Assembly: GCF_019175385.1 (NCBI RefSeq)
Contig: NC_083347.1
Span: 121,900,124-121,964,123 of the forward strand
Direction of reading: 5' to 3'
Source of the DNA: Lycium barbarum
Taxonomy: Eukaryota; Streptophyta; Magnoliopsida; Solanales; Solanaceae
Length of the DNA stretch: 64,000 bases
The position numbers and the translations under genes were made by a program. This document shows positions 4,368-39,166 of the stretch, one piece after another (position 1 is the first letter of the stretch; each line of letters begins with the position of its first letter). Below the pieces are notes generated by a model that ran no database searches, was not told where the DNA came from, and worked only from the letters and a program-made list of their open reading frames with translations.

Positions 4368-4375
4368 GCATATTC
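4368..4375 (+). promoter_or_regulatory. P1BS element (PHR-binding site) of MIR399 unit 1
   Basis: GCATATTC matches the P1BS consensus GNATATNC bound by PHR-type phosphate-starvation regulators. It ends exactly 27 bp before the TATA box at 4403-4410 (TATATAAT). The same spacing recurs in the units at 17.0, 31.5 and 39.0 kb, which supports function. Confidence 0.75.
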
Positions 4376-4470
4376 AAATGAATTATGCGACTGTCAAGTG
4401 ACTATATAATGGTGGTGAACAAATGAGAAGCTACTCAAGGAAATTTCAACAATTGAAGATTAATGTAGCA

Positions 4471-4563
4471 CAAGAATGGCAGGCTATTCTCCTTTAGCAA
4501 GAATGCTATGCTTTTGCATAACTTTGTTTCTTGCCAAGGGAGAATTGCCCTGCGTTTCTTCAG
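4471..4563 (+). ncRNA. MIR399: microRNA399 precursor hairpin, unit 1
   Basis: The miR399-like mature sequence occupies 4532-4552 on the 3' arm; it starts TGCCAAGGGAG and ends ATTGCCCTG. Its partner strand is on the 5' arm at about 4482-4502 (GGCTATTCTCC...). The arms pair from an outer AAGAA/TTCTT through the miRNA duplex, with a loop of roughly 30 nt. The layout (star on the 5' arm, mature on the 3' arm) is the standard MIR399 layout. Position 7 of the mature is G where most plant miR399 have A. A TATA box at 4403-4410 predicts a transcript start about 40 nt before the hairpin. miR399 is known to target PHO2/UBC24 mRNA during phosphate starvation. Confidence 0.9.
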
Positions 4564-4599
4564 TTCCAGATTGCTGAACAATCAACAAAAATGTAATAA

Positions 4600-4900
4600 A
4601 ATGCTTATAATACTTTTCGCAATGAAGGTGTTGAAGACATAATTAAGAAATAAAAAAGATGGGCACACACTTTAACGCGGTATCTGAGTAAACAGAGGTT
4701 TTGGATTCAAGTCTCCCAGGCAATAGAGGTTTTGGATTCAAGTCTCCTAGGCTCTCATTATTTATCAAAAAGAATTTTCATGTGCTTGGCTTAAAGAATC
4801 GGGCCCACACGTGAGGGGCATGTTAAGACGTTATTAAGTAAATAAAGAGAAGTGAACTTTCTATAACATCTTCAACTTTTAGATTAAATAGTCACACACT
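4600..4900. other. downstream flank of MIR399 unit 1, shared with unit 4
   Basis: Sequence from about 4620 (GGTGTTGAAGACATA..., GATGGGCACACACTTTAACG..., GGCCCACACGTGAGGGGCATG) recurs in diverged form after the unit 4 hairpin (31,810-32,040). The duplicated segment therefore extends beyond the hairpin. No coding sequence is seen. Confidence 0.6.
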
Positions 4901-4904
4901 TTAG

Positions 4905-5110
4905 CGACATAAATGGATTTCCTTCCTTTGGATAAGGGAATGGGTTCAGTGGGATTCTTGACAGGGCAGCCTTTGCGTTACTACGGCTCTTGGCCTCTTT
5001 CCTCTCGTACCATGCCTGTTGAAAGTTCCTTGCCTTTTCCCTAGGTCGAGTCCCCTTTTCAGTCGCCCTCTCACTTCGTTCGAGCTGAATTACAACCACC
5101 CTCTCACGGG
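4905..5110. other. GC-richer patch, possibly organelle-derived
   Basis: This stretch is clearly richer in G and C than its surroundings and is open on the minus strand for 71 codons (5099-4884). Phrases such as CTCACTTCGTTCGAGCTG recall plant mitochondrial intergenic DNA. No gene was recognised and the organellar origin is only a guess. Confidence 0.25.
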
Positions 5111-5325
5111 AATCTTCTTCTTTATAATACGTACGAGACTACCAAATTAGAAAGGAGTTGTACTTAACTAACAAAGAAATCTGGCTTTGACTATCTTGGC
5201 TCTTTGGCATTGGACGTGGCAGGATGGCAGCAAAGGGGTTGGCATGATAACCTAGTCATGGATCCTATGTGCAGACGAAATCAACATGCGGGACAATGAA
5301 TGGGACTAGAACAAAGAGTTGATAC

Positions 5326-6024
5326 TTAGGGTGGGCGTTGGGGCCGTCGGATTGAATATGAAAATTTGGGATTTACGATTTTCGGATTGAAGAAATTACA
5401 ATCCAAATCCAATCCAAATAAGTTCGGATTGGGTTGGATTTTTTAAGTTCGATTTTGGGTTAATCGGTTTGGATATTTCACATTTTCGGTTTTGACTTTT
5501 AAGCCTCCAAGGCAGGCTTAGCTTATTAGATTCGAAACTCATGTGCCGCAGTTACCAAGTTACAGGTCTTAGCATAATGTGAAACCAAATATGTTGATTC
5601 AGCAAGAGTTGTTACCACTAAATCAAGAGGTATCAATTCACATAGTATTCTACATTACTCCATTTGTTTCATTAGAAGTTGTCTTATTCTTAAAGTAGTG
5701 AAGTAAACTCCACCTTTGCAAGCTTTATTGTTTAATTTGGTAGAAAATTTTATATTGGACGTAATATTATAATGGGTAGGGCTGTAGCGTACTAATACTA
5801 ATCGATTGTCTTTGGAATAATTAGTATTGGACACATACAATATCGGTAGGGCAAAATATAAGGTATAAAATTGTTTGAACTAAACCCAATATCCAATCCG
5901 AAATCTAAAAATTATAAAAATAAAGTCCTAAGTCCAATCCATAATCTAAAAATCTAAACCAAATATACAAAATATTCGGATTTCGATTTGGATTTCAAGT
6001 TGATCCAAACTATGCCCACCCCCT
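5326..6024. mobile_element. hAT-like non-autonomous element
   Basis: Ends TAGGGTGGGCG (left) and GCCCACCCCCTA (right) form short inverted repeats. They are flanked by an 8-bp direct repeat, GTTGATAC (5318-5325) and GTTGGTAC (6025-6032), one mismatch, as expected for hAT elements. The interior is rich in repeated AATCCAAATCC/GGATTTGGATT motifs. Open frames inside look spurious. Confidence 0.65.
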
Positions 6025-6071: not shown

Positions 6072-6333
6072 TACTCCCTCTGTTTCAATTTATGTGAACA
6101 TGTTACTATTTGGGGAGTCTACGAGGTGGTTCTTTGGCCATGTTTTTCATACATTTTTTCTAAATTATTTGAATTATAAATTATCATGACTTAACTACTT
6201 TTTACGTAGTTTCTAAATATATAAATTTTATTTTTACAAACTTGAAAAATCTATGTTAAAATTTATGGTCAAAGTTATAAAATTTGACCCTCGTACTCCG
6301 AAAAGGTTCACATAAATTGAAATGGAGGTAGTA
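6072..6333. mobile_element. Stowaway-like MITE, second copy
   Basis: Inverted ends CTCCCTCTGTTTCAATTTAT and ATAAATTGAAATGGAGGTAG are flanked by TA. It belongs to the same family as the element at 1297-1515 but has a different interior. The 245 bp between it and the Copia element hold nothing recognisable. Confidence 0.75.
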
Positions 6334-6578: not shown

Positions 6579-7119
6579 TGTTAGGTGTGGAATTGGCCAA
6601 ACAAGTCAATTCTTTTGTTCACATAGTCGTGATGTAAGCGCTTACCTCATAATAGTTGTGATGTAAGCGCTTACCTCATCATAGGAAATTCATTCCTATA
6701 AATAGGTAGCTTATGGTTCATTTGTAAGAGATCATTAAGATCATTTGCTATACACATCCCAAGAGAGAAAAAATCTAAGAGAAATACTCTTAGTGAAAGG
6801 CCTAAGTAAGAGAAGGTCTTTGAGAGAATTTTCTGTGGTAAAATTCTTGAGTGTAATTGGGATTGGGGTTGTGAGGTTGAGTGTTGTAAACACTTGTAAT
6901 ATTTCTTCTTTAATAAGATCTGCAGCAGCAACGTGGACGTAGCTCTCACATTGAGGGTGAACCACTATAAATCTGTGTGTGCTATTTATTCTTCACTTAC
7001 ATCACTGCGTAAGTAGGTTCTTCCTAAGGAGGTTGGTATTTAAGTGGTCCAGCTGTGACCCTCCAATCTTTCCTGGGAACCTGCTTACAAAGGTCGGATT
7101 TGGGATTTAAATCCTAACA
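6579..7119 (+). repeat. 5' LTR of the Copia element
   Basis: A 541-bp terminal repeat acting as the promoter. A TATA box TATAAATA lies at 6697-6704, so transcription probably starts near 6730. Two tandem copies of a 29-bp unit upstream contain the perfect palindrome TAAGCGCTTA (6635-6644 and 6664-6673), a likely activator-binding repeat. Short open frames inside the LTR are not genes. Confidence 0.95.
6635..6673 (+). promoter_or_regulatory. tandem palindromic repeat in the LTR promoter
   Basis: TAAGCGCTTA occurs twice, 29 bp apart, within GTGATGTAAGCGCTTACCTC, and ends 23 bp before the TATA box. Copia elements of the Tnt1/Tto1 group are known to carry repeated stress-responsive boxes in the LTR; that this pair plays the same role is inference. 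The pair is repeated in the 3' LTR. Confidence 0.6.
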
Positions 7120-7121
7120 AC

Positions 7122-7133
7122 TGGTATCAGAGC
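7122..7133 (+). other. primer-binding site
   Basis: TGGTATCAGAGC begins 2 bp after the 5' LTR. It is complementary to the 3' end of plant initiator Met-tRNA, the usual primer for minus-strand synthesis in plant LTR elements. Confidence 0.93.
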
Positions 7134-7160
7134 AACAGGTTGTGTTGTGATTTAGAAACG

Positions 7161-10100
7161 ATGGGAGGCGAAGATGGTACGACGCACGGCATCGGTAAAT
7201 TCGATGGTACAGACTTTGCGTTCTGGAGAATGCAAATTGAAGATTATTTATATGGCAGAAAGCTTCATGAACCTCTGAGTCCGAAACCAGAGGAGATGAA
7301 GCAAGCAGATTGGAATCTCCTCGACAGACAAGTTCTGGGAGTCATTCGGCTGACGCTGTCAAAGAACGTTGCTCACAATGTGGCAAAGGAGAAGACCACT
7401 GCAGATATGATGAAGGTATTGTCTGACATGTATGAGAAACCTTCGGCAAATAATAAGGTATTTCTCATGAAGAAACTATTTCATCTAAAGATGATGGAAA
7501 ATGCTCATGTTGCTGCACACGTAAATGAATTCAATACCATTGTAAATCAATTGTCATCGGTAAAAATTGACTTCGATGATGAAGTGCAAGCTCTAATTTT
7601 GTTGGCATCCCTACCAAATAGCTGGGAGCCAATGAGAGCAGCGGTTAGTAATTCTGTCGGCAGTGACAAACTAAAGTTCAACGATGTTAGGGATCGTATC
7701 CTTGCTGAGGAAGTGCGCAGGACAGATTCTGGAGAGGCATCGACGAGTTCTGCTTTTAATGTTGAAAACAGAAGCAGAAATTATGACAGAAACTACAACC
7801 GAAATAGGGGCAGATCGAAGTCAAGGAATGGCAGGGGTCAATCCAGACCAGGACGAACATTTGATTGTTGGAACTGTGGAAAACCAGGTCACTTCAAGAA
7901 GAACTGCAGGGCGCCAAAGAAGGAGGACAACAAGGGGGCTGGAATCAACGCTGCTACGGAAGACATTGGCGATGCGTTGTTGCTATCGGTTGACAGCCCG
8001 ATAGACTCTTGGGTGCTTGACTCAGGAGCGTCCTTTCATACCACCCCACATCATGATATAATGACAAACTACGTGGCTGAGAATCTTGGCAAAGTTTATT
8101 TAGCTGATGGAGAGCCGCTAGACGTTGTTGGCATGGGAGACATTAATTTGAAGATGTCAAATGGATCCTCGTGGAAGATTACAAAAGTTAGACATGTTCC
8201 AAAGCTGATGCGAAACCTGATCTCAGTAGGTCAGCTTGATGATGAAGGATATGATCTCAACTTTGGTAATGGGTCTTGGAAGGTGGCAAAAGGTGCTATG
8301 GTAGTTGGCCGAGGAAAGAAGATTGGCACTCTCTACATGACGGCTAGCTGTCGTGATACTGTTGCTGTGGTTGACAACACAAAGAAGACAGATTTGTGGC
8401 ATTGTCAGCTGGGGCATATCAGCCAGAAGGGGATGAATCTGTTGGTGACAAATGGTTTAATTCCGGAGCTGAAGACGGTGGACCTTCATACGTGTGAGAG
8501 CTGCATTCTCGGAAAACAAAAGCGAGTAAGCTTCTCAAGTGCAGGCAGAGAGTTGAAGGTCGAAAAGCTGGAATTGGTGCACACAGACGTGTGGGGACCT
8601 ACCACTGTACCCTCCCTTGGAGGATCACACTACTACGTGACCTTCATTGATGATTCAACCAGGAAGGTATGGGTTTATTTTATGAAAAATAAATCCGATG
8701 TGTTTAGTGTATTCAAAAGATGGAAATCCATGGTCGAGAATGAAACAAACCTCAAGTTGAAGTGTTTGAGGTCCGACAACGGCGGAGAATACACTGATGG
8801 TGATTTCAAACGGTACTGTGCCGATAATGGGATCAAGATGATGAAGACTATTCCTGGAACGCCGCAACAGAATGGAGTAGCCGAAAGAATGAACCGAACG
8901 TTGAACGAGCGTGCTCGGAGTATGAGAATACACTCTGGACTGCCCAAGACATTCTGGGCAGATGCAGTCAATACCGCGGCCTTCTTAATTAACCGAGGAC
9001 CGTCAGTTCCCTTGGATTTCAGAATTCCAGAAGAAGTCTGGAGTGGCAAGAAGGTAAATCTTTCATTTCTGAAAGTGTTCGGTTGCTTATCATATGTTCA
9101 TAATGATGATACGGCTAGAAGCAAGCTTGATCCAAAATCAAAGAAGTGTTACTTTATTGGCTATGGTGACACCGAGCTTGGGTACCGATTTTGGGATGAA
9201 CAAAATCGGAAGATCATCCGAAGCAGGAATGTTGTCTTTAACGAAGAGGTACTGTACAAAGACAAGCTGCAAAAGAATTCAGAATGTCAGGACAAGGAAT
9301 CGAAAATAGTCGATTTGAGGGACTTTCCGGCACCTGAGCCGCAGCCAGGTACAACCGAGGCAGAGGAACAAACAATCCGAGAAGATGCTGATGAAAGTGC
9401 TGATTCTGAAACAAATGAACAGACGCCAATCACAGAGCTGCGTAGATCATCCAGGATCAGGAAGCCGCTTCACAGGTACTCTCCATCCCTCAACTACATT
9501 CTACTCACTGATAGAGGGGAGCCGGAATGTTATGAAGAAGCAATGCAAGTCGATGAATCGACTAAGTGGGAGCTGGCAATGAAGGATGAAATGGATTCAC
9601 TATCGGCAAATCATACATGGGAATTATCCGAGTTGCCAAAGGATAAAAAGGCATTGCAAAACAAATGGGTTTATCGGATAAAGGAAGAACCCAATGGAAG
9701 CAAGCGTTATAAAGCAAGGCTGGTTGCAAAGGGATTTCAACAGAAAGAAGGCATTGACTATACGGAGATCTTCTCTCCCGTAGTCAAGATGGTGACTATC
9801 AGAACTGTTCTTGGGCTGGTAGCAAAGGAAAATCTACATCTGCAACAGATGAACGTGAAAACTGAATTTCTTCACGGTGATCTAGACGAGGAAATCTACA
9901 TGCGACAGCCGAAGGGATTCAAAATCAAAGGAAAGGAGAATCTGGTGTGCAAACTTCAAAAGAGTCTGTACGGACTAAAACAGGCTCCAAGACAGTGGTA
10001 TTTAAAGTTTGACAGCTTTATGAAGAAAGCTGATTTTTCAAGGTGCGAGGCAGATCACTGCTGTTACTTCAAAAAAATTGAAGACTCGTACATGATACTG

Positions 10101-11066
10101 CTACTCTATGTCGACGACATGCTAATCGTAGGAGCAAACCTACAGGAGATTGATCGGTTGAAAAAGGGGTTATCGGAAGAGTTTGCAATGAAGGATTTGG
10201 GAGCTGCAAAGCAAATCCTTGGGATGCGAATCGACCGAAGCAAGGAGGGCATCAAACTCTCACAAGAAGAATATGTGAGGAAAGTTATCAAAAGGTTTAA
10301 CATGCATGATGCCAAGCCAGTCAGCACTCCCTTGGCTGGACACTTTCGGTTGTCAAAGGATCAGTCGCCGACAACCGAGGATGAGAAGAGGCAGATGGAC
10401 AAGATACCTTATGCATCTGCAATCGGTAGTCTTATGTATGCAATGATATGTACAAGGCCAGACATTGCACATGCAGTGGGAGTTGTCGGCCGATTTATGA
10501 GCAATCCGGGAAAGCAACACTGGGAGGCTGTGAAGTGGATATTCAGATATCTGAAAGGCAGCTCGAGTTCAGCTCTGTATTTCCGAAAATCAAAAACAGG
10601 ATTGCAAAGGTATGTTGATGCTGACAACGGTGGTGATATTGATAGCAGAAAGAGCACATCCGGGTATGTTTACACCTTCGGAGGTACTGCAATCTCTTGG
10701 GTTTCCAAGTTGCAAAAGATAGTAGCTCTCTCTAGTTGTGAGGCTGAGTACGTTGCTGTGACGGAGGCCACAAAGGAAATGATGTGGCTACAATCTTTTC
10801 TGCGGGAATTGGATCAGGACCACGAGGGAAGTGTGCTATATTGTGATAGCCAAAGCGCCATTCATTTGGCAAAGAACCCGGTTTACCATGCTCGAACGAA
10901 GCACATACAACTCCGGTACCATTTCATTAGATCAGCTTTGGAAGATGGAGCGCTAGTGCTTGAGAAGATCGCAGGGAGTCAGAATCCAGCAGACATGCTG
11001 ACAAAGGCAGTGACGATAGACAAACTGAATCTATGCTCAACTTCAGTTGGCCTGCACGAAGTATGA
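7161..11066 (+). CDS. Copia Gag-Pol polyprotein (Tnt1-like), intact
   Basis: A single 1301-aa frame encodes the whole polyprotein. The ATG at 7161 (MGGEDGTTHGIGKF) is chosen; the frame opens upstream without ATG. Domains in order: Gag of the UBN2 type (about residues 10-220); CCHC zinc knuckle CWNCGKPGHFKKNC (about 236-249); aspartic protease with VLDSGAS (D near 287); integrase with an HHCC zinc-binding region, then D476, D539 and E575 with the canonical 35-residue spacing; reverse transcriptase with YVDD near 983-986; RNase H ending near KHIQLRYHFIR. The RT motif that usually reads VKTAFLHGDL reads VKTEFLHGDL, and the RNase H motif usually DADWAGD reads DADNGGD. These are small departures that may or may not affect activity. 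No stop or frameshift is present. Confidence 0.96.
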   Translation: MGGEDGTTHGIGKFDGTDFAFWRMQIEDYLYGRKLHEPLSPKPEEMKQADWNLLDRQVLGVIRLTLSKNVAHNVAKEKTTADMMKVLSDMYEKPSANNKVFLMKKLFHLKMMENAHVAAHVNEFNTIVNQLSSVKIDFDDEVQALILLASLPNSWEPMRAAVSNSVGSDKLKFNDVRDRILAEEVRRTDSGEASTSSAFNVENRSRNYDRNYNRNRGRSKSRNGRGQSRPGRTFDCWNCGKPGHFKKNCRAPKKEDNKGAGINAATEDIGDALLLSVDSPIDSWVLDSGASFHTTPHHDIMTNYVAENLGKVYLADGEPLDVVGMGDINLKMSNGSSWKITKVRHVPKLMRNLISVGQLDDEGYDLNFGNGSWKVAKGAMVVGRGKKIGTLYMTASCRDTVAVVDNTKKTDLWHCQLGHISQKGMNLLVTNGLIPELKTVDLHTCESCILGKQKRVSFSSAGRELKVEKLELVHTDVWGPTTVPSLGGSHYYVTFIDDSTRKVWVYFMKNKSDVFSVFKRWKSMVENETNLKLKCLRSDNGGEYTDGDFKRYCADNGIKMMKTIPGTPQQNGVAERMNRTLNERARSMRIHSGLPKTFWADAVNTAAFLINRGPSVPLDFRIPEEVWSGKKVNLSFLKVFGCLSYVHNDDTARSKLDPKSKKCYFIGYGDTELGYRFWDEQNRKIIRSRNVVFNEEVLYKDKLQKNSECQDKESKIVDLRDFPAPEPQPGTTEAEEQTIREDADESADSETNEQTPITELRRSSRIRKPLHRYSPSLNYILLTDRGEPECYEEAMQVDESTKWELAMKDEMDSLSANHTWELSELPKDKKALQNKWVYRIKEEPNGSKRYKARLVAKGFQQKEGIDYTEIFSPVVKMVTIRTVLGLVAKENLHLQQMNVKTEFLHGDLDEEIYMRQPKGFKIKGKENLVCKLQKSLYGLKQAPRQWYLKFDSFMKKADFSRCEADHCCYFKKIEDSYMILLLYVDDMLIVGANLQEIDRLKKGLSEEFAMKDLGAAKQILGMRIDRSKEGIKLSQEEYVRKVIKRFNMHDAKPVSTPLAGHFRLSKDQSPTTEDEKRQMDKIPYASAIGSLMYAMICTRPDIAHAVGVVGRFMSNPGKQHWEAVKWIFRYLKGSSSSALYFRKSKTGLQRYVDADNGGDIDSRKSTSGYVYTFGGTAISWVSKLQKIVALSSCEAEYVAVTEATKEMMWLQSFLRELDQDHEGSVLYCDSQSAIHLAKNPVYHARTKHIQLRYHFIRSALEDGALVLEKIAGSQNPADMLTKAVTIDKLNLCSTSVGLHEV

Positions 11067-11122
11067 AAGTAGGAAAGAGCTGCTGCATCGATCAAAGTGT
11101 GAAGACAAATTAAAATTAGTCT

Positions 11123-11136
11123 TCAAGTGGGAGATT
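11123..11136 (+). other. polypurine tract
   Basis: AAGTGGGAGATT lies directly before the 3' LTR and is the expected plus-strand primer site. The form is common in Tnt1-like Copia elements. Confidence 0.8.
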
Positions 11137-12264: not shown

Positions 12265-12540
12265 GTCACCATTAACAAATCATTGTGACACTTCTGATAA
12301 AGCAACAAAAAACCTATGTCCAATCTTTATTTTTGTACAGCATAATATCTCAAAAGGGTAAAAGGCAGAGATCTCTAAAGCTTTTGACCAAGATTCCATG
12401 AAAAAAGAAATTAAAGTCATGAGAATATATAGCTGTTGTAGTCTTAATGGCATTTATTGGTATATGCTTTCTTGTTATCTTAGGATGTCCGACATTAGGA
12501 GCCAAGTTTTCTATGGAAAGGCGTTCTCCTTTTGAGAATG
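12265..12540 (+). repeat. conserved block of MIR399 unit 2 with a small hydrophobic ORF
   Basis: This block lies about 1 kb upstream of the hairpin and recurs at 16,170-16,390, 30,377-30,600 and 37,530-37,800. It contains an ATG (12,447) opening MAFIGICFLVILGC, a hydrophobic start like a signal peptide or membrane anchor; the frame stays open for 65 codons here. The same start is present in the other copies but only the 16.3-kb copy also stays open (52 aa). It may be a leftover exon of an old gene, a small peptide gene, or chance. Confidence 0.5.
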
Positions 12541-13245: not shown

Positions 13246-13288
13246 GCATATATCCAAGTGAATTATGCGAATGAAGTGACTATATAAA
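13246..13288 (+). promoter_or_regulatory. MIR399 unit 2 core promoter with a disrupted P1BS site
   Basis: Where the other units have an intact GNATATNC, this one reads GCATATATCC (13,246-13,255): two extra bases break the consensus. A TATA box TATATAAA follows at 13,281-13,288. Phosphate control of this copy may therefore be weakened, unless another site outside the core serves it. Confidence 0.6.
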
Positions 13289-13341
13289 TGATGGTGAACA
13301 AATATGAAGTATGTCAAGGAAATTTCAAGAATTGGAGTACA

Positions 13342-13431
13342 AGAATAGCAGGCTATTCTCCTTTAGCAAGAAAGCTATGCTTATTGCATTATTATTTTTC
13401 TTGCCAAGGGAGAATTGCCCTGCATTTCTTT
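13342..13431 (+). ncRNA. MIR399: microRNA399 precursor hairpin, unit 2
   Basis: The mature sequence at 13,402-13,422 is identical to unit 1 (TGCCAAGGGAG..., ...ATTGCCCTG). The star strand is at about 13,351-13,371 on the 5' arm. The arms pair through AGAA/TTCT beside the loop, and the loop is about 30 nt. It lies about 1.0 kb upstream of the UGT gene at 14,419 on the same strand. The hairpin is intact, but the P1BS site in its promoter is broken. Confidence 0.88.
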
Positions 13432-13679
13432 AGTTTCAGATTGATGAACAAATCACCAAAAATATTTAATTAATTGGTTCTACTTCTTTCTCAAATGGAA
13501 CCATATATATATGTCCATACAAGATCCAATATCTCGTAAAGGGATTTCTTTTTTACTCCCTCTTAAATTTTAAATTTTCTCACGTTTTAGGTATTTGAGA
13601 TGGTTGAGAATATGAATAATTAAATAAAAATATACTCTCTCTTACACTTATATAGATTTAAAAAGATAGATATATAGAA

Positions 13680-14418: not shown

Positions 14419-15852
14419 ATGAACATGAGAAAAGATGGTGTTGTTCATGTTGTAATGTTGCCGTGGTTAGCATTTGGTCACATGCAGCCCTTTTTTCAAC
14501 TTTCTATAGCTCTAGCCAAAGAAGGAGTTCACGTTTCTTTCCTTTCCACCCCCAAAAATATTAAGAGACTCCCTAAAGTTCCCATTAATTTAGCATCATT
14601 AGTAAATTTAGTTGAATTTCCATTGCCAAAAGTTGATGATTTGCCTGATGATGCTGAGGCATCTGTTGACATTCCTTATGAGAAAATAGGCTATTTAAAA
14701 GTAGCTTATGATCTCCTTGAAGAGCCAATCAAGCGATTCATCACGCGCGAAAGGCCAGATTGGATCATCGTCGATTTTAACGCCAATTGGATAGTTGAGA
14801 TCGTTCGAGATCTTGATATCCCCCTCATTAGCTTCAGCGTCTTCACTGCTGCTTTAAGGGTCTTCTTCGGCCCCCAAAAGCCTCGACCCCAGCCCGGCCC
14901 GGCCCTAGAAAGATCAGTGCCAGTGCTTGAACTTTTGACAACACCACCACCATGGGTGGATTTCCCATCTATGGTTGCTTTCCGAAAATTCGAAGCTATG
15001 AAAATGATAACTGTCCTACAAATTGGAGAGAGTGCTACACGCGAAACTTTAGTGGGACATGATCCAATAGACGACGCATATAGAATTGTGGCTATACGTA
15101 CTTGCACTGAAGTGGAAGGTGATTACTTAGAGACACATAAGAGAATCCATGGGAAGCCACTGATTCCAATCGGATTACTTCCACCTGAAGAATTACCGGT
15201 GGATGAAAAAACTCTTGCTGATCAACCAGATTGGCAGAAGATTTCCAAATGGCTCGACCGACAAAAGCCAAGATCCGTTGTGTTTGTGGGATTTGGGAGT
15301 GAATGTAAATTTAGTAAGGATCAACTATATGAAATAGCAAACGGAGTACAACTCTCAGGACTACCGTTTATGTGGATAATTCAGAAGCCCGAATGGTCTT
15401 CTAACGATGCTGAGGCTTTGCCATCGGGCTTTGGCAAAGCAACGGAGGGGAGAGGGTTGGTGCACATTGGTTGGGCCCCACAGAAGGAAATTCTTGCACA
15501 TTCATCAATTGGAGGATCTCTCTTTCACGCAGGATGGGGTTCGGCCATTGAAACTTTACAACATGGTCATGTTCTTGTGGTGTTGCCTTTCGTTTATGAT
15601 CAGGGATTGAATGCAAGGTTACTAGTAGAGAAAGGCGTGGCGATTGAAGTGAAGAGGAACGAAGAAGATGGATCGTTTAGTGGAAATGACATAGCAATGT
15701 CATTAAGAGAAGCTATGGTTTCAGAGGAAGGGGAAGAGCTAAGAGCTCGAGCAAAAAAGGCTGCTGCTATTTTTGGTGACCGAAAGCTTCAAGACTCCTA
15801 TGTTAGAAATTTTGTCGAGTATTTGAAAAGTAATGGTGAGATGAAGGCTTAG
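14419..15852 (+). CDS. UDP-glycosyltransferase, UGT91-type (copy 1)
   Basis: The single-exon gene encodes 477 aa, the normal length for plant family 1 glycosyltransferases. The ATG at 14,419 (MNMRKDGVV) is chosen because it aligns with copy 2; the frame also opens 20 codons earlier at 14,359. The N-terminal acceptor domain carries the catalytic-type histidine in LAFGHMQPFF (H21). The sugar-donor PSPG box spans about residues 352-395, from WAPQKEIL to the final Q of FVYDQ. Its core reads HAGWGS where most family members have HCGWNS. Overall residue patterns resemble UGT91 enzymes, often labelled UDP-rhamnose:rhamnosyltransferase, which extend sugar chains on flavonoids or terpenoids; the true donor and acceptor are unknown. 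The enzyme should be cytosolic (no signal peptide). It lies about 1 kb downstream of MIR399 unit 2. Confidence 0.92.
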   Translation: MNMRKDGVVHVVMLPWLAFGHMQPFFQLSIALAKEGVHVSFLSTPKNIKRLPKVPINLASLVNLVEFPLPKVDDLPDDAEASVDIPYEKIGYLKVAYDLLEEPIKRFITRERPDWIIVDFNANWIVEIVRDLDIPLISFSVFTAALRVFFGPQKPRPQPGPALERSVPVLELLTTPPPWVDFPSMVAFRKFEAMKMITVLQIGESATRETLVGHDPIDDAYRIVAIRTCTEVEGDYLETHKRIHGKPLIPIGLLPPEELPVDEKTLADQPDWQKISKWLDRQKPRSVVFVGFGSECKFSKDQLYEIANGVQLSGLPFMWIIQKPEWSSNDAEALPSGFGKATEGRGLVHIGWAPQKEILAHSSIGGSLFHAGWGSAIETLQHGHVLVVLPFVYDQGLNARLLVEKGVAIEVKRNEEDGSFSGNDIAMSLREAMVSEEGEELRARAKKAAAIFGDRKLQDSYVRNFVEYLKSNGEMKA

Positions 15853-16169: not shown

Positions 16170-16451
16170 TTTTTGTACGTATAGCAGCATAATACCACAA
16201 AAGGGAAAAAGACAGATATCTATAAAGCTTTTGACCAAGATTCCATGAAAAAGGAAAGTCATGAGATTCTCCATAGCTGTTGAATAGCCTTAATGGCATT
16301 TATTGGTATATGCTTTCTTGTTTTCTTAGGATGTCTGATATTAGGAGCCAAGTTTTATATAGAAAGGCATTCTCGTTTTGACAATGAAAGCAACAGCTAT
16401 ATACAATTCCAAATTAAGCAATTTTGTGCGGTCGTTAAACTTCTGGTCTAA
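16170..16451 (+). repeat. conserved block of MIR399 unit 3 with a small hydrophobic ORF
   Basis: Second copy of the block at 12,265. The ATG at 16,293 opens a 52-codon frame starting MAFIGICFLVFLGCLILGAK, closed by TAA at 16,449-16,451. It has a hydrophobic N-terminus followed by a polar tail (ERHSRFDNES). No homologue was recognised. Coding status is uncertain. Confidence 0.45.
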
Positions 16452-16980: not shown

Positions 16981-16993
16981 ATTCTTTTCTTTA

Positions 16994-17001: not shown

Positions 17002-17090
17002 AAATGAATTATGCGAATTTCAAGCGACTATATAAATGGTGGTGCACAAATATGAAGTGTCACAAGGAAATTTTAAGAATTGGAGCACAA

Positions 17091-17183
17091 GAATAGCAGT
17101 CTATTCTCCTTTGGCAAGAAAGTAATGCTTATGCATAATTTTTTTTTTTTTCTTGCCAAGGAAAAACTGCCCTGCATTTCTTT
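17091..17183 (+). ncRNA. microRNA399-like hairpin, unit 3 first copy (decaying)
   Basis: The equivalent of the mature strand lies at 17,154-17,174 and reads TGCCAAGGAAAAACTGCCCTG when split as TGCCAAGG / AAAAACTG / CCCTG. It differs from the other copies in the middle (GGGAGAAT replaced by GGAAAAAC). The star region is at about 17,099-17,119. The changes create C.A mismatches in the stem. A long T run (17,139-17,151) sits in the loop. It is probably a non-functional or weak copy next to the intact one at 17,240. Confidence 0.5.
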
Positions 17184-17239
17184 AATTCCAGATTGTTGAA
17201 CAAATAAAAAAAAATCACCTTTAGCAAGAATTGGAGCAC

Positions 17240-17332
17240 AAGAGTAGCAGGCTATTCTCCTTTAGCAAGAAACCTATGCTTTATGCATAATATTTTTCTT
17301 GCCAAGGGAGAATTGCCCTGCATTTCTTTAGT
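17240..17332 (+). ncRNA. MIR399: microRNA399 precursor hairpin, unit 3 second copy
   Basis: The mature sequence at 17,300-17,320 is identical to units 1, 2 and 4. The star is at about 17,250-17,270. This hairpin is a local tandem duplicate of the one at 17,091 (period about 151 bp). Both lie behind one P1BS-TATA promoter and may come from one transcript. UGT copy 2 follows 0.95 kb downstream. Confidence 0.88.
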
Positions 17333-18249: not shown

Positions 18250-19698
18250 ATGAACATGAGAAAAGATGGCGTTGTTCATGTTGCAATGTTGCCATGGTTA
18301 GCATTTGGTCACATGCAGCCATTTTTCCAGCTTTCTATAGCTTTAGCCAAAGAAGGAGTTAATGTCTCTTTCATTTCTACTCCCAAAAACATTAAGAGAC
18401 TTCCCAAAATTACCCCCAACTTAGCACCACTAGTAAATTTAGTGGAATTTCCATTGCCAAAACTTGATGATAGGTGCCTTTTGCCTGATGATGCTGAGGC
18501 AACTGTTGACATTCCTCATGATAAAGTTGGCTACTTAAAAGTAGCTTATGATCTCCTTCAAGAACCAATCAAGCGATTCATCACGCGCGAAAGGCCCGAT
18601 TGGATCATCGTTGATATTAACTCCAATTGGGTAGTTGAGATTGGTCGAGATCTTGACATCCCCCTCATTAGCTTCAGTGTCTTCACTGCTGCTTTACGGG
18701 TCTTCATCGGGCCCCAGAAGCCTCAAGCTGGGCCCGGCCAGCCCCAAGATGGATCAGTGCCAGTGCTTGAACTTTTGACAACACCACCACCATGGGTGGA
18801 TTTCCCATCGATGGTCGCTTACCGAAAATACGAAGCCATACAAGTGATTACTATGCTACATCTTAGAGAGAATGCTACACGTGAAACTTTAGTGGGACAT
18901 GATCCTACTATAGACCACGCGTATAGAATTGTGGGTATACGTACTTGCTCTGAAGTGGAAGGCGATTACTTAGAGACGTATAAAAGAATCTATGGGAAGC
19001 CAGTTATTCCGATCGGATTGCTTCCACCCGAAGAAATATTAGCCCTGGATGAAAGAACTCTTGCCGGTCAGCCAGAGTGGCAGAAGATTTCCAAATGGCT
19101 CGACCGACAAAAGCCAAGATCCGTTGTGTTTGTGGGATTTGGAAGTGAATGCAAATTTAGTAAGAATCAACTATATGAAATTGCAAATGGAGTACAACTC
19201 TCAGGACTACCATTTATGTGGATATTACAGAAGCCCGAATGGGCTTCGAACGATGCTGATGCTTTGCCATCGGTTTTTGGCGAAGCAAAGAAAGGGAGAG
19301 GGTTGGTGCACATTGGCTGGGCCCCGCAGAAGGAAATTCTGGCACATTCATCAATTGGAGGATCTCTTTTTCATGCAGGATGGGGTTCGACCATTGAAAC
19401 TTTACAACATGGTCATGTTCTTGTGGTGTTGCCTTTCATTTTCGATCAGGGATTGAATGCAAGATTACTAGTAGAGAAAGGCTTGGCGATCGAAGTGAAG
19501 AGGAACGAAGAAGATGGATCGTTTAGTGGAAATGACATAGCAATGTCATTAAGAGAAGCGATGGTTTCAGAGGAAGGGGAAGAGCTAAGAGCTCGAGCAA
19601 AAAGGGCTGCTGCTATTTTTGGTGACCGAAACCTTCACGACTCCTACATTAGAAATTTTGTGGAGTATTTGAAAAGTAATGGTGAGATGAAGGTTTAG
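18250..19698 (+). CDS. UDP-glycosyltransferase, UGT91-type (copy 2)
   Basis: Intact single-exon gene of 482 aa, a close paralogue of the gene at 14,419. It starts MNMRKDGVVHVAMLPW with the catalytic-type histidine at residue 21 (FGHMQPFF). The PSPG box is at about residues 357-400, from WAPQKEIL to the final Q of FIFDQ, with the same unusual HAGWGS core. Compared with copy 1 it has a short insertion in the N-terminal domain (RCLLPDDAE where copy 1 has LPDDAE) and several substitutions in the acceptor-side region around residues 150-200, the part that usually sets acceptor choice. It is expected to be cytosolic and to transfer a sugar, often rhamnose or glucose in this clade, onto an already glycosylated metabolite. 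It lies 0.95 kb downstream of the MIR399 unit 3 hairpins. Confidence 0.93.
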   Translation: MNMRKDGVVHVAMLPWLAFGHMQPFFQLSIALAKEGVNVSFISTPKNIKRLPKITPNLAPLVNLVEFPLPKLDDRCLLPDDAEATVDIPHDKVGYLKVAYDLLQEPIKRFITRERPDWIIVDINSNWVVEIGRDLDIPLISFSVFTAALRVFIGPQKPQAGPGQPQDGSVPVLELLTTPPPWVDFPSMVAYRKYEAIQVITMLHLRENATRETLVGHDPTIDHAYRIVGIRTCSEVEGDYLETYKRIYGKPVIPIGLLPPEEILALDERTLAGQPEWQKISKWLDRQKPRSVVFVGFGSECKFSKNQLYEIANGVQLSGLPFMWILQKPEWASNDADALPSVFGEAKKGRGLVHIGWAPQKEILAHSSIGGSLFHAGWGSTIETLQHGHVLVVLPFIFDQGLNARLLVEKGLAIEVKRNEEDGSFSGNDIAMSLREAMVSEEGEELRARAKRAAAIFGDRNLHDSYIRNFVEYLKSNGEMKV

Positions 19699-30376: not shown

Positions 30377-30600
30377 TCTTTTGTACGTATGGCAGCATAA
30401 TATACCACAAAGGGGAAAAAGAGGGAAATCTCTAAAGATTTTGACCATGATTCCATGAAAAAATAAAGTCGTGGGAATCTATAGCTGTTGAATAGTCTTA
30501 ATGGCATTTATTAGGATATGCTTACCTGTTATCATACGATGTCCGATTTAGGAGCCAATATTTCTATTGCTAGGCATTCTCCTTAATTGTTAAAGAAAGC
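30377..30600 (+). repeat. conserved block of MIR399 unit 4
   Basis: Third copy of the block at 12,265 and 16,170. The small ORF beginning at ATG 30,501 (MAFIRICLPVI) closes early at TAG, so it is not maintained here. Confidence 0.6.
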
Positions 30601-31479: not shown

Positions 31480-31580
31480 AAATGAATTATACCAATATCA
31501 AGTGACTATAAATAATGGTGGTGACCAAAATGTGAAGTATGTCAAGGAAATTTCAAGAATTAAAGATTAATTGGAGCAAA

Positions 31581-31670
31581 AGAATTGCAGGCTGTTCTCC
31601 TTTAGCAAGAACAACTATGCTTTTGCATAAAATTTTTCTTGCCAAGGGAGAATTGCCCTGCGTTTCTTCA
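31581..31670 (+). ncRNA. MIR399: microRNA399 precursor hairpin, unit 4
   Basis: The mature sequence at 31,640-31,660 is identical to units 1, 2 and 3b. The star strand at about 31,590-31,610 reads GGCTGTTCTCC..., with one G replacing A, which still allows G:U pairing. The loop contains CTATGCTTTTGCATAA. The 3' tail GCGTTTCTTCAGTT matches unit 1 better than units 2-3, as does the downstream flank. No UGT gene follows this unit. Confidence 0.9.
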
Positions 31671-32912: not shown

Positions 32913-33530
32913 GGGCAATTCGCAGAATCGTCCTTCTTTTGGGGTGGTCTTTAAATTTTGCCCCTCATATTTGAAATCTTTAAATTTTGCTCTTCGGCTA
33001 AAACCCATGGGTTCCAGGTTCGAACCCACACACAGTTAAAATTTAAAAAAAAAAATCGCAAGACAGAGTTTAAATTTCGGTATGCCCCCACCGGCATACA
33101 CTTGTGAAGGAATTATCAAAGTTATGCCGGACCCGACATACTTATGCCTTATGGGCAGACTTGGCATAAGTATGCCGGGTCCGGCATAACTTTGATAATT
33201 CCTTCACAAGTTTATGTCGGGTCCGGCATAAAAGTTTGTCCATTAAAAGTATGCCCCACCGGCATAAACTTTGGTAATTCCTTAACAAGAGTATGCCGGA
33301 TCCGGCATACACGCGACCTAAACCTTGCCTTGCAATTTTTTTTTAATTTATGCTTGAGCGGGGGTTCGAACTCAGAACCTCATAATTTCTGCGTGAACGC
33401 TCAAAGTTGCAATGCGAAGGGCAAAAATTAAAGACCAGCAATATGAGGGGCATAATTTAAAGACCACAAATATGAGGGGCAAAATTTAAAGACCACCCCA
33501 AAAGAAGGGCAATCCGCGCAAAAAAAAATG
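32913..33530. mobile_element. MULE-like fold-back element (618 bp)
   Basis: Long inverted ends, CCTTCTTTTGGGGTGGTCTT on the left and its complement AAGACCACCCCAAAAGAAGG on the right, are flanked by a 9-bp duplication CATCTAGTT (32,904-32,912 and 33,531-33,539). A 9-bp duplication is typical of Mutator-like elements. The interior has nested palindromes built on GCCGGACCCGACATA/TATGCCGGGTCCGGCATA. It has no coding capacity. Confidence 0.8.
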
Positions 33531-35585: not shown

Positions 35586-36146
35586 TGCTCGAAGAGCAAC
35601 AAATCAATGTGGCAAATTATGTAAGTTACCCATAATGGTACTTCCAATAAAGATAGGCTAGCTTAATACTTTTTTTTTCAATTTATATGATATATATTTT
35701 CTTTTTAATATAATTCGAAAATAAAGATACATTTTTGTCAAATGACATGCTTATGTCAACTAAGATTCCAATGAGTGTAACTTTTAATTATAAAAACTAG
35801 CGAACAATAGAACAAATAACAAGTCTTATGTCAAAGTGAACTCACACTTGATTACAAAAGTCAAAAGGACTTCAAACTAGTTGTCTAAGTTAGGGCATGT
35901 TACCTCATTTATTATAATATAATGAAGTCAGAAATTTCTCTAATGATATTTAAGATTTAATATATGAAGTATAATTTTCTAAATATATGGTATAATTTTG
36001 GGAATATTTAACTTGACCATCCTTCGGTCGATGTGGCTCAACCGTGTGCTTATAAGTAGCTTATACTTGCATACTTCAAGAAAATTAAACAAAAGATTTT
36101 ATTTTACCTTTGTTGCAACAAGTGAGCTATTGTATAATATTGTATG
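35586..36146. other. AT-rich spacer before the diverged hairpin
   Basis: No gene recognised. GAATATTT (36,002-36,009) is one base short of a P1BS site, and CTTATAAG (36,049-36,056) is a weak TATA-like box before the hairpin at 36,147. Confidence 0.4.
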
Positions 36147-36252
36147 GGTGAGTTACGGGGCAAATCTTCTTTGGCAATTAATGACCTAAATTTCACCAAA
36201 TAATAGTGAAGTGTGGCTATTTGCCAAAGAAGATTAGCCCAGTAATGCATCC
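36147..36252 (+). ncRNA. diverged miR399-like hairpin
   Basis: The 5' arm GGGCAAATCTTCTTTGGCAA (36,158-36,177) pairs with TTGCCAAAGAAGATTAGCCC on the 3' arm with a single mismatch, and the stem extends outward through GTTAC/GTAAT. The 3'-arm candidate mature strand (36,222-36,242) begins TGCCAAAG and ends AGCCCAG. It differs from canonical miR399 at a few positions, notably A for G at position 9. The arm order agrees with MIR399. The surrounding sequence is unlike the six clustered units, so it is either a separate MIR399 lineage or a small inverted repeat that resembles one. Confidence 0.55.
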
Positions 36253-36589: not shown

Positions 36590-37063
36590 GGGAAAATGCC
36601 TAAAATACATCCTAACGTTTGGCCGGATTATTTATAACACACTCAACCTTTACGGGTGACCTATTACCCCACTGGATTTATTTTTAAAGCATTTCTTTGG
36701 CATTAATCTGAAAATTTTGAACCAAATTTCCAACGCGGCATAAATCAAGACTCGATTGTGAAAGAATATAGTGATTCACAAGATCAAATTCAAAGAGAAT
36801 CAACTCTATCTTTCTCCATTAAAAAAATTAAGAGTGTAGGAGAAAATTCTAATTTTTTGTTTTATTCGAAGAGTGAAATGACCTGAAAATGACCGGACTC
36901 CTTTGCTTTTTGGCCTTTTGTTCAGCACGTGTTTGAATTATTTTTCAACTCACTCGATAAATGTCAAAAAAAATTCTTAAAATATATGCAGGGGGTAATA
37001 GGTCACCCGTAAAGGTTGAGTGTGTTATAAATAATCCGACCAAACGTTAGGGTGTATTTTAGG
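36590..37063. mobile_element. fold-back MITE with inverted arms of about 75 bp
   Basis: The left arm (CCTAAAATACATCCTAACGT ... ACCTTTACGGGTGACCTATT) is nearly complementary to the right arm (AATAGGTCACCCGTAAAGGT ... AGGGTGTATTTTAGG). The centre is about 320 bp and non-coding. No clear target duplication was found. The structure suggests a Mutator-like fold-back. Confidence 0.75.
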
Positions 37064-37529
37064 TTGGTTGTGTGGGCTTTATTAATAAAATCCATACATA
37101 TTTTGTTGGGACGGGTTTTTAAAAAACAAAAATTCTATACTACGCGATAGGTACTTCTGGGTTTTGTAGGGTCGAATCTTCATTAGATTAAAAATAGGTT
37201 AAAATGTGGGAATTGTTGGTGTGACAATTTAAAATAACAACAGATAAAAATATCTCCATCGAAAGGTTATATTTTTAGCCATCGTTACTTTTCTGTTATA
37301 ATGGTGAGAGTACTGTGATTTTTGGGTGACCAAACACGTTATATGACTTTGGTGAAAAGTAATTAAGTGACCATTTTATGAAATTAATTTACCCCTTAAA
37401 ACATATTCTTCTTGGTTTTTACTTTCCAATTTATCTGACTCACTTTCAATATACAACTTCGTAGAAAAGAGACAAAATATCATTGGAGAAGTTATTCCTT
37501 GACTTTCTAATTAAAGTGAGTATTGGAGT
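37064..37529. other. spacer and left edge of unit 5
   Basis: No gene. From about 37,430 the sequence resembles 12,120-12,260 of unit 2 (TTCCAATT..., ATATCATTGGAGA), marking the start of the duplicated unit. Confidence 0.5.
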
Positions 37530-37800
37530 AGTTGATCAGAATTTACGTCAACATTAACAAATCATGGTGACACTTATGAGAAAGCAACAAAAAGCCTATG
37601 TCCAATGAATTCTTTTGTACGTATAGCAGCATAATATCAACAAAAGGCGAAAAGAGTAAGATCTCTAAAGCTTTTGAACATGATTCCATGAAAAAGAAAT
37701 TAAGTCATGGGAATCTCTAGCTGTTGAATAATCTTAATGGCATGTATTGGCATATGCTTTCTTGTTATCATAGGATATCCTATTTAGGTGCCAAGAACTC
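37530..37800 (+). repeat. conserved block of MIR399 unit 5
   Basis: Fourth copy of the block at 12,265. The small ORF from ATG 37,736 (MACIGICFLVIIGY) closes at TAG soon after, as in unit 4. Confidence 0.6.
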
Positions 37801-38526
37801 GAGCTCTCCATCTCCTAGAGATTGGATTTAGACTTAGGGGTGTCAAATTGACTCGAATTTAACCGATAAAAGTATGATTCGTTCAACCCGTGTAGAAGCG
37901 AGTTGGTACGTATAGCATATGTTCATTGAGACTAGTTTGGGATCAATAACCCAAATTTGTCCATATAAAGCTTGAGCAAATTTAATATGGGTAGCATTGG
38001 TAGTCCAAATTAACTTATAAGAAAACAAACAAAAATAGGTTGAATGAAGTAATAGACATTTATATTTAAACTGATTTGTCATCTCGGCCCCTTAACTCCG
38101 CGAGATTTCATCCAAGTATGTTAACCTAAGCTCACCAGTTGGATCGGGTTGTCCCATGTCCGGCCCTGTAAAATTGGGTCGAAACGGGCTGGTGGGCTGA
38201 GTCGGCAGACCTGACGCGGGGGTTGTGTTGACCAAGGTCATAGGCCCGATAGACTGGCTCAGGTAGTAGCTCGAGTATCAGCACACAGGGGTCACCGGCC
38301 CAGTTAAGTAAAAAAAAAAAAGGTTTTAATTTATCCATTTTCTAGCTGTTGGCCAATTGTCATATCTCCAATTTATTCAAAATCCAGTAAGTTATCTTTT
38401 CTAAAATTCAGAATTCATAAACACAAAATTTGGAATTCGCCTTTTAGTCTCTGCATATATATAACATTTGAAGTGATCCATATACATCATTAGCGCGAGA
38501 GGGGAACAAAATCTGGTCCAATAAAG
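37801..38526. other. insertion-rich spacer within unit 5
   Basis: This segment has no counterpart in units 2-4 and separates the conserved block from the hairpin. A repeat-like stretch (38,130-38,300) with GGGTCGAAACGGGCTGG motifs is probably a degraded transposon. No gene. Confidence 0.45.
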
Positions 38527-38765
38527 AAGATCATGCCTCCACACAAGCTAGAACCTTTTTAGGTTCCGAAATATCAAGTCTCACCCTCAAATTTGCCAAA
38601 GATTGAACATTTGTAGCCAACTAACACTCCTAACTTGTAGCAAAGCTAAGCTACCCATACTCACCGCCTTTCGACAGAAGGCATCTGCCACTACATTGGC
38701 CGTGCCCGCATGATAAAGAATAGTCATGTCGTAATCCTTGTGAAATTCTAACGATATTAGTTTGA
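38527..38765 (-). pseudogene. Ty3/Gypsy polyprotein fragment
   Basis: Read on the minus strand, the sequence encodes DYDMTILYHAGTANVVADAF followed by RKAVSMGSLALLQVRS. This is the end of Gypsy RNase H and the linker to integrase, where intact elements have a VADALSRK-type motif. A frameshift and stops follow. It is a small remnant stranded inside MIR399 unit 5. Confidence 0.8.
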
Positions 38766-38960
38766 AAGAACATGCTTCTTCTTCAGCATCTTTTCAATGA
38801 ATAGAGAGAATAAATCAAGAAATTAAATTAGATAATAATGATGTCATGATGGAGTTACATGATCTATTGGCCTTTCATGCATGGGAATTAATGTAAAGAC
38901 CCTTTTAACAAAGAGAATAGCCACAACATCACATGCCTAGTTTCTTTTTTTTCTGCTTCA

Positions 38961-38968
38961 GCATATGC
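38961..38968 (+). promoter_or_regulatory. P1BS element of MIR399 unit 5
   Basis: GCATATGC matches GNATATNC and ends 27 bp before TATAAATT (38,996-39,003), the same spacing as in units 1, 3 and 4. Confidence 0.75.
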
Positions 38969-39061
38969 TAATCGATTATGCGAATATCAAGTGACTATAA
39001 ATTGTGGTGAACAAAATAAATCTGAAGTATCTCGATATAAGAATTGAAGATTAATTGGAGA

Positions 39062-39166
39062 GGCAAGAACCGCAGGGTATTTTCCTTTAGCAAGATTGAT
39101 ATATGCTTAATTATGCATGAATTAATTCTTTCTTGCCAAAGGAGAATTGCCCTACGTTTCTTCATT
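39062..39166 (+). ncRNA. MIR399: microRNA399 precursor hairpin, unit 5
   Basis: The mature sequence at 39,134-39,154 starts TGCCAAAGGAGAATTG and ends CCCTA. It has the canonical A at position 7, unlike units 1-4, and A instead of G at the 3' end. The star strand is at about 39,075-39,095 (GGGTATTTTCC...). The loop is longer (TATATGCTTAATTATGCATGAATTAA). Its promoter keeps P1BS and TATA. This copy may be closest to the ancestral miR399 sequence. Confidence 0.9.

Follow-up and report, generated by a model that had tools for sequence, protein, structure and literature searches.

MIR399 Hairpins and Mature Sequences

The window analyzed here is a 64,000-nucleotide stretch of Lycium barbarum contig NC_083347.1. 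Its interval 4368–39166 contains seven MIR399 loci, namely a plus-strand family of six tandem hairpins (five intact and one decayed) and one locus, F, on the minus strand. Covariance scores refer to Rfam model RF00445 (gathering score, 57 bits).

4470..4562, plus strand: MIR399 hairpin A; mature 4532–4552; P1BS 4368–4375; TATA from 4403; 39.3 bits on plus (43.7 on minus); z −5.6
13339..13432, plus strand: MIR399 hairpin B; mature 13402–13422; TATA from 13281; 41.4 bits on plus (43.3 on minus); z −5.5
17087..17184, plus strand: decayed MIR399 hairpin C; mature-like 17154–17174; P1BS 16994–17001; TATA from 17029; 31.3 bits on plus (35.4 on minus); z −3.1
17238..17330, plus strand: MIR399 hairpin D; mature 17300–17320; 36.2 bits on plus (38.9 on minus); z −5.1
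31578..31670, plus strand: MIR399 hairpin E; mature 31640–31660; P1BS 31472–31479; TATA from 31507; 42.3 bits on plus; z −5.7
39063..39164, plus strand: MIR399 hairpin G; mature 39134–39154; P1BS 38961–38968; TATA from 38996; 48.0 bits on plus; z −5.8
36146..36252, minus strand: MIR399 locus F; mature 36176 to 36156; 62.8 bits; z −7.9; upstream on the same strand, P1BS 36382–36375 and TATA 36328–36321

All of the six plus-strand mature sites proposed in a sequence-only reading of this DNA are present. Those beginning at 4532, 13402, 17300 and 31640 (A, B, D and E) are one identical 21-mer, TGCCAAGGGAGAATTGCCCTG, the mature sequence of G (39134) is TGCCAAAGGAGAATTGCCCTA, and the mature-like site of C (17154) is TGCCAAGGAAAAACTGCCCTG. 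A search for canonical miR399 with up to three mismatches gave six matches in the window, corresponding to five of these sites and to locus F, and none in 100 dinucleotide shuffles; thus, the sites are not a product of chance. The degenerate form of miR399 gave eight matches, i.e., all six plus-strand sites (1–2 mismatches) and both strands of F (2 mismatches on the minus strand). In the folds, the mature sequence occupies the 3' arm, and the 5' arm of each carries the star, as had been claimed. Mean pairwise identity among the six copies is 0.921 for the mature and star segments, compared with 0.764 for the loop and 0.728 and 0.762 for the flanks.

On the plus strand, the six tandem hairpins score 31.3–48.0 bits, all under the gathering score, with E-values from 4.7e-8 to 0.0038 in a window-wide scan. 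Therefore, the assignment of these hairpins to MIR399, which the analysis supports, is based on their mature sequences, folds and E-values. Each of them matches the model on both strands below the cut-off, and since A, B, C and D (four of the six) have slightly higher minus-strand scores, Rfam alone is insufficient to establish their orientation. An nhmmer search of the window with a profile of the six hairpins revealed no further MIR399 remnants; it recovered the six on both strands and the minus strand of F (E-value, 0.00098), and the other seven rows, including the plus strand of F, had E-values of at least 1.4.

Plant microRNA genes are expected to have few mismatches in the stem over the mature region. 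This is the case for A, B, D, E, G and F, with 1–3 of mature nucleotides 1–19 unpaired; in the five tandem hairpins, 2–3 are unpaired and z ranges from −5.1 to −5.8. A hairpin had been proposed for each of the six, which holds for these five but not for C, where 9 of the 19 nucleotides are unpaired and z is only −3.1. C thus shows the very outcome, no stable stem over the mature region, that the earlier reading had named as evidence against itself, and, judging by its fold, it looks like a dead, decayed copy. The 5' arm of C contains TTTGGCA again. A role of C as a decoy found no support: its predicted duplexes with the A/B/D/E and G matures reach −24.6 and −24.9 kcal/mol, compared with −22.8 and −23.1 kcal/mol for the ordinary star arm of unit A and −42.0 and −38.3 kcal/mol for a perfect duplex. 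A scan of both strands of the window for the IPS1/At4-type mimic pattern GGGCA-N6..12-CYTTGGCA gave seven places, each of which is an arm of one of the seven MIR399 loci or the complement of such an arm.

Nucleotide 7 is G in the 21-mer of A, B, D and E, and A in F and G; of the six tandem copies, five have the change at this position. Against a canonical site, G7 in A, B, D and E would be expected to form a G:U pair in the seed. The exact 21-mer of these four was not found in the literature search. Among the five members printed in the consulted part of PMC6296076, Nbe-miR399-2 of Nicotiana benthamiana (UGCCAAAGGAGAAUUGUCCUG) shares, by eye, the central GGAGAAUUG with A, B, D, E and G, and differs from the tandem copies in having A rather than G at nucleotide 7, a feature found among them in copy G only, and U rather than C at nucleotide 17. 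The G7 copies may represent a diverged form of miR399, with a shifted target preference that matches certain PHO2 sites or else new targets. The occurrence of one identical 21-mer in four copies suggests that this form has been kept, and A7 is found in F, G and all five N. benthamiana members of that source. On the other hand, gene conversion could equally keep the copies alike, and the G:U pair may simply be tolerated, and such a divergence is regarded as unlikely.

A MIR399 Locus on the Minus Strand

The earlier count of six overlooked locus F, which lies on the opposite strand. It is the best-scoring MIR399 and the sole locus in the window above the gathering score (62.8 bits on the minus strand, compared with 57). 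Its P1BS and TATA box, 54 bp apart, follow the same order as in the tandem units, on the minus strand; neither motif was found within 300 bp of it on the plus strand. The mature sequence is identical to that of Nbe-miR399-1, sequenced from phosphate-starved N. benthamiana, the promoter of which also contains P1BS and TATA, according to the consulted part of PMC6296076. F is taken to be a separate MIR399 of the miR399d type, sitting inside the array on the other strand.

The plus strand of F exceeds the gathering score as well (61.6 bits), and good folds were obtained for the two strands (z −7.9 and −7.0). Sense and antisense transcripts might therefore both fold, each giving a miR399-like 3'-arm product. 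However, the geometry of a near-perfect hairpin leads to matches on both strands, as seen for the six tandem hairpins below the cut-off, the upstream P1BS and TATA are confined to the minus strand, and it is the minus-strand product, the one covered by the literature search, that is in print (PMC6296076, as far as consulted). A two-way microRNA at F was thus rejected as the main reading and is considered highly improbable.

Proximal Promoters

The PHR1 site, P1BS, was searched as GNATATNC. It is present in the proximal promoters of A, C (common to D), E, G and F. In A, C, E and G, i.e., in all four tandem units with an intact proximal P1BS, the site precedes the TATA box by exactly 35 bp; ten P1BS–TATA pairs with a spacing of 25–61 bp occur over the two strands together, and the 35-bp spacing is unique to these four. 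In unit B, alignment places the corresponding site at 13246..13255 on the plus strand, where two extra bases interrupt it (GCATATATCC), and no intact P1BS was found within 300 bp. No TATA or P1BS occurs between hairpins C and D, and D, having no P1BS of its own, probably uses that of C. The suggestion that the hairpins share promoters thus holds in the sense that every unit has a homologous promoter, but a single common promoter is seen for C and D only.

The window contains 26 P1BS motifs, compared with a mean of 15.4 and a maximum of 25 in 50 shuffles, and this abundance counts against a PHR1-driven reading of the locus. In a column-shuffle test of the proximal site, four matching rows were obtained in none of the real alignment windows, because the insertion in B puts gap columns in the site, and in 2 of 5000 shuffles of all columns and 67 of 5000 shuffles of gap-free columns.

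Duplication Units

Sequence comparison confirmed that the hairpins belong to duplicated units with upstream sequence in common. The tree of the six tandem hairpins has three inner branches, none with strong support. The view that different units have different flanking genes proved only partly correct, as B and C/D are each followed by a copy of one UDP-glycosyltransferase (UGT) gene, copied together with the hairpin unit. The flanking UGT genes indicate a Solanaceae source nearest to Lycium. A retrotransposon lies between A and B.

14419..15852, plus strand: UGT1, intact UDP-glycosyltransferase ORF, 477 aa; Pfam UDPGT
18250..19698, plus strand: UGT2, intact UDP-glycosyltransferase ORF, 482 aa; Pfam UDPGT; 94.6% to Lycium barbarum P0001
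6579..11677, plus strand: Ty1/copia LTR retrotransposon; 541-bp LTRs that differ at one position; 5-bp target duplication TTTTC

Transposons among tandem plant genes are unremarkable.

A second conserved region, the distal block, lies 0.8–1.5 kb upstream of the hairpins in four units (B, C/D, E and G) and is 84–91% conserved. All four copies contain a P1BS, which in three of them is adjoined by a near match to MYCS, a mycorrhiza-response element.

12338..12506, plus strand: distal block of unit B; P1BS 12460–12467; MYCS-like 12468–12478
16183..16352, plus strand: distal block of unit C/D; P1BS 16306–16313; MYCS-like 16314–16324
30391..30558, plus strand: distal block of unit E; P1BS 30514–30521; no MYCS-like site at up to one mismatch
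37622..37795, plus strand: distal block of unit G; P1BS 37750–37757; MYCS-like 37758–37768; second P1BS 37773–37780

These conserved features bear on whether the tandem copies are mostly silent relics, with phosphate regulation left to F and to miR399 genes at other places in the genome. Such a reading would fit the facts that F alone passes the Rfam cut-off, that C is decayed and the proximal P1BS of B interrupted, and that five of six copies carry the nucleotide-7 change. Conservation of mature and star segments above that of loop and flanks, the P1BS–TATA spacing preserved in four of four intact units, and the 84–91% identity of the distal block all argue against it, and we consider it quite improbable.

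The MYCS element is described as TTTCTTGTTCT or one variation of it, and in a strict form as TTCTTGTTC. The MYCS-like sites match TTTCTTGTTCT at 10 of 11 positions; the exact 11-mer has no occurrence in the window, and the strict 9-mer is absent at these sites. A similar arrangement, P1BS beside a TTTCTTGTT core, is known from the P1BS–MYCS (CTTC) modules of mycorrhiza-activated Solanaceae PHT1 promoters (LePT3, LePT4 and LePT5), and the two motifs are placed "very closely" in tomato, according to the consulted part of PMC4007770. Unlike in those modules, the MYCS-like site found here fits the "one nucleotide variation" rule (PMC4926463) rather than the strict tomato TTCTTGTTC, and is located upstream of microRNA genes. 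The distal block could be an enhancer in which P1BS adjoins a MYCS-like element, so that miR399 in arbuscular-mycorrhizal roots would be under the joint control of PHR factors and of AP2/WRI factors induced by mycorrhiza, with duplication having spread this phosphate-plus-symbiosis switch over the array; this proposal is speculative and rather doubtful. The block was rejected as a structured RNA, as z-scores for the B and G copies on both strands were 0.23, −1.08, 1.35 and −0.17.

Proposed Function and Evolution of the Array

The sequences, folds, duplications, motif positions and conservation described above were read directly from the window. We infer transcription, PHR1 binding, processing, targets and biological role. 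Very probably, the locus is an array of MIR399 genes driven by PHR1, which duplication has enlarged and transposons have interrupted, and which provides a higher dosage of miR399 against PHO2 when phosphate is lacking. PHR1-type MYB factors would then bind the P1BS located 35 bp (A, C/D, E and G) or 54 bp (F) upstream of TATA and switch the loci on, Dicer-like 1 would cut the hairpins into 21-nt 3'-arm products, and these would repress PHO2, and perhaps PHT1;4 too, leading to more phosphate uptake. The array probably grew by segmental duplication of a unit composed of distal block, proximal promoter and hairpin, which in B and C/D also included a UGT gene. The C/D hairpin pair behind one promoter probably arose by internal duplication, and C decayed.

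According to the consulted part of PMC11062440, miR399–PHO2 and PHR–P1BS form one pathway. In N. benthamiana, as reported in the consulted part of PMC6296076, all five MIR399 promoters contain P1BS, phosphate-starved plants have miR399-1 as one of their most abundant members, and cleavage of PHO2 and PHT1;4 was detected by 5' RACE; the same source reports that the PHO2 target was absent from degradome reads and that there was no significant difference in target transcript levels between +P and −P.

Clustering itself is not new, as the earlier reading had stated: miR399 genes in legumes are "generally organized in clusters" (PMC3707012), and miR399 is listed with the homologous miRNA clusters reported from plants (PMC2812943), both sources as far as consulted. 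The array resembles those legume clusters (RF00445) in its 3'-arm miR399 hairpins and in the several homologous copies close together, and does not differ from them in kind; its particular features are a duplication unit that can be recognized together with its control regions, a decayed copy, and a miR399d-type locus of opposite strand inside the array. As MIR399 clusters and P1BS promoters are already known, novelty would lie in the possible mycorrhizal module, which has modest support.

The locus offers a well-resolved Solanaceae MIR399 cluster, with the duplication unit and its control regions visible, one dying copy, a probable two-hairpin transcript (C/D) and a miR399d-type neighbor in opposite orientation. 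If the proposal for the distal block is true, the enhancer would be a direct cis-regulatory cause of the rise that has been reported for some miR399 members in the leaves of tomato and Medicago with mycorrhiza. Should the block with its P1BS and MYCS-like sites prove to be an enhancer, phosphate starvation, miR399 and mycorrhizal symbiosis would be connected by a cis-regulatory link that can be tested directly.

MIR399 Hairpins and Locus F

The sequence-only reading had placed six miR399-type hairpins (A–E and G) in duplicated units on one strand. A search with canonical miR399, allowing up to three mismatches, gave six matches in the window, of which five are sites of that reading, and none in 100 shuffles. 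A degenerate form of miR399 gave eight matches, namely all six sites and both strands of a further locus, F.

MIR399 loci: mature position and strand; fold z of the 115-nt stretch; unpaired positions among mature nt 1–19 in the tight precursor
A: 4532, plus; −5.6; 3
B: 13402, plus; −5.5; 3
C: 17154, plus; −3.1; 9
D: 17300, plus; −5.1; 3
E: 31640, plus; −5.7; 3
G: 39134, plus; −5.8; 2
F (36146–36252): 36176 to 36156, minus

A, B, D and E share one mature sequence (UGCCAAGGGAGAAUUGCCCUG), from which G departs at nt 7 and 21, and C at nt 9, 11 and 14. All six proposed mature sites were recovered. By their folds, five of the six hairpins (A, B, D, E and G) are plausible miRNA precursors; C, with nine unpaired positions and z of −3.1, is not.

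Against the Rfam MIR399 cut-off of 57 bits, the six tandem hairpins score 31.3–48.0 bits on the plus strand and 35.4–43.7 bits on the minus strand. Hairpins A, B, C and D score higher on the minus strand, and their putative plus orientation is based on the mature sequence and promoter motifs. The only place in the window found at the gathering threshold is F, which scores 62.8 bits on the minus strand and 61.6 bits on the plus strand. The sequence-only reading had overlooked this MIR399 locus. The two-strand match of F was ruled out as a sign of two-way transcription, since the six tandem hairpins also match on both strands. The following motifs were found at F:

36382–36375, minus strand: P1BS (PHR1 binding site)
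36328–36321, minus strand: TATAAAAA

They lie 206 bp and 152 bp upstream of the minus-strand mature start, respectively, and neither occurs within 300 bp on the plus strand of F. The minus-strand mature sequence, TGCCAAAGAAGATTTGCCCCG, equals Nbe-miR399-1 as printed in a phosphate-starvation study (PMC6296076).

Proximal Promoters and the Distal Block

The binding of PHR factors to P1BS and the repression of PHO2 by miR399 have both been reviewed (PMC11062440). The window contains 26 P1BS, compared with a mean of 15.4 and a maximum of 25 in 50 shuffles, so the mere presence of the motif is weakly informative. Each of A, C, E and G has a P1BS whose start lies exactly 35 bp upstream of a TATA box, although the distance from this P1BS to the mature start ranges from 160 to 173 bp; among the 10 P1BS–TATA pairs spaced 25–61 bp on both strands of the window, this 35-bp spacing is unique to these four. 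The proximal P1BS of B is broken by two extra bases, and the stretch between C and D has neither TATA box nor P1BS. In a column-shuffle test of the proximal P1BS, the real alignment had no window with four matching rows, as the insertion of B places gap columns within the site, and shuffles reached four rows in 2 of 5000 cases (all columns) and 67 of 5000 (gap-free columns).

A conserved distal block of about 170 bp is located 0.8–1.5 kb upstream of B, C/D (two hairpins probably behind one promoter), E and G, and was not found at A. Across the six pairs, its identity is 84–91%, compared with 71–83% for the proximal promoter and 74–95% for the hairpin, varying with the pair and the alignment. 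Between block and promoter, identity is lower for B–E and CD–E in most 50-column steps. All four blocks carry P1BS at one alignment position, with variation solely at a free base of the consensus; column shuffles gave such a four-copy position in 0 of 5000 cases (all columns) and 13 of 5000 (gap-free columns). A W-box (TTGACC) is present in three of the four blocks, and four folds of the block revealed no RNA structure.

In B, C/D and G, the distal P1BS adjoins TTTCTTGTTAT or TTTCTTGTTTT, which match 10 of 11 positions of the mycorrhiza-response element MYCS, described as TTTCTTGTTCT or with one variation (PMC4926463); the P1BS of E has no adjoining MYCS-like site. The window holds 10 MYCS sites at up to one mismatch, none of them exact. 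P1BS and one-mismatch MYCS at most 5 bp apart form four pairs from three MYCS-like sites, one being flanked by P1BS on both sides. At least one pair occurred in 5 of 200 shuffled windows within 5 bp and in 19 of 200 within 30 bp, and four pairs in none; MYCS was looked for only after the block had been seen, and the pairs count as about one event because the block copies are paralogous. The adjacency of P1BS and MYCS-like sites is suggestive.

In tomato, MYCS near P1BS is described solely for three mycorrhiza-activated PHT1 genes, in the strict form TTCTTGTTC, which the MYCS-like sites of the distal blocks do not fit (PMC4007770). Mycorrhization raises some miR399 members in Medicago and tomato leaves, but over-expressing miR399 failed to support colonisation when phosphate was high (PMC4160938). 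PHR factors enable mycorrhiza in rice, and P1BS and CTTC/MYCS are often combined in Lotus-type promoters; the text of the paper describing this makes no mention of miR399 (PMC8789775).

Duplication History and UGT Genes

Self-comparison matched 12644–13463 to 16392–17215 (80%), 16484–17216 to 30946–31704 (70%), 4367–4603 to 31471–31714 (84%) and 31471–31707 to 38960–39199 (75%), as well as the UDP-glycosyltransferase (UGT) segments 14186–15875 and 18012–19721 (88%). Hairpin C with its upstream sequence matches the upstream side of B, and D with its downstream sequence the downstream side; C and D therefore look like an internal duplication of a single hairpin behind a single promoter. No single order of duplication emerges from the tree of the six hairpins. 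Their mean pairwise identity is 0.921 in both mature and star, 0.764 in the loop, and 0.728 and 0.762 in the flanks. The unconstrained chance of an identical 21-mer in B and D is about 1% (0.8 to the power 21; linked UGT Ks 0.24), for copies of equal age without gene conversion.

The UGT ORFs after B (UGT1, 477 aa) and after C/D (UGT2, 482 aa) are both intact and match Pfam UDPGT. Among the 120 homologues listed of 714 passing, UGT1 comes closest to a protein from Lycium barbarum named 'putative UDP-rhamnose:rhamnosyltransferase 1' (86% identity), with which UGT2 shares 94.6% identity; other close homologues among those listed are from Nicotiana, Capsicum, Lycium ferocissimum and Withania. The window thus belongs to Solanaceae, most probably to Lycium or a close relative. 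UGT1 and UGT2 show a Ks of 0.239 and Ka/Ks of 0.26, which at 6.5 × 10−9 substitutions per site and year places their split at roughly 18 million years. Imperfect direct repeats (13647–14335) lie between B and UGT1 and are partly common to 17732–18100 before UGT2, beside which a (TG)20 run is found (17952–17991).

Transposons and Repeats

6579–11677: Ty1/copia element between A and B; 541-base LTRs with one difference; 5-bp target duplication
20.8–27.3 kb and 40.8–45.7 kb, plus strand: non-LTR retroelement pieces
52.8–54.0 kb, minus strand: non-LTR retroelement piece

At usual substitution rates, the Ty1/copia element would be younger than about 0.15 million years. The non-LTR retroelement at 20844–27313 has DUF4283, endonuclease and reverse-transcriptase domains in frames interrupted by stops. 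A MITE-like 577-bp element (32932–33508) with 42-bp perfectly inverted ends lies between E and F. A further element, of 465 bp (36599–37063), separates F from G's distal block; its inverted ends measure about 110 bp and are 89% alike. Tandem repeats include a 173-bp unit present twice (47586–47927), the two copies being 99% alike, and AT-rich arrays of short repeats with units of about 11, 22, 33 and 65 bp (62511–63172). Rfam matches far under the cut-off, to MIR8007 (6092–6315; 46.4 of 195 bits) and MIR2630 (3263–3383; 36.3 of 144 bits), are possibly transposon-derived.

Relation to Known MIR399 Clusters

UGCCAAGGGAGAAUUGCCCUG, in RNA or DNA spelling, was not found in the open-licence PubMed Central main texts searched. 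One MIR399 member has been assigned among L. chinense small RNAs (PMC4294688), and another Lycium paper mentions miR399 as a mobile signal (PMC5067468). Legume MIR399 clusters are in print (PMC3707012), a list of homologous plant miRNA clusters includes miR399 (PMC2812943), and in grapevine, chromosome 10 is named as the location of five of the nine MIR399 genes (PMC10931670). MIR399 clusters as such are already known, and the window holds a real, well-structured MIR399 array.
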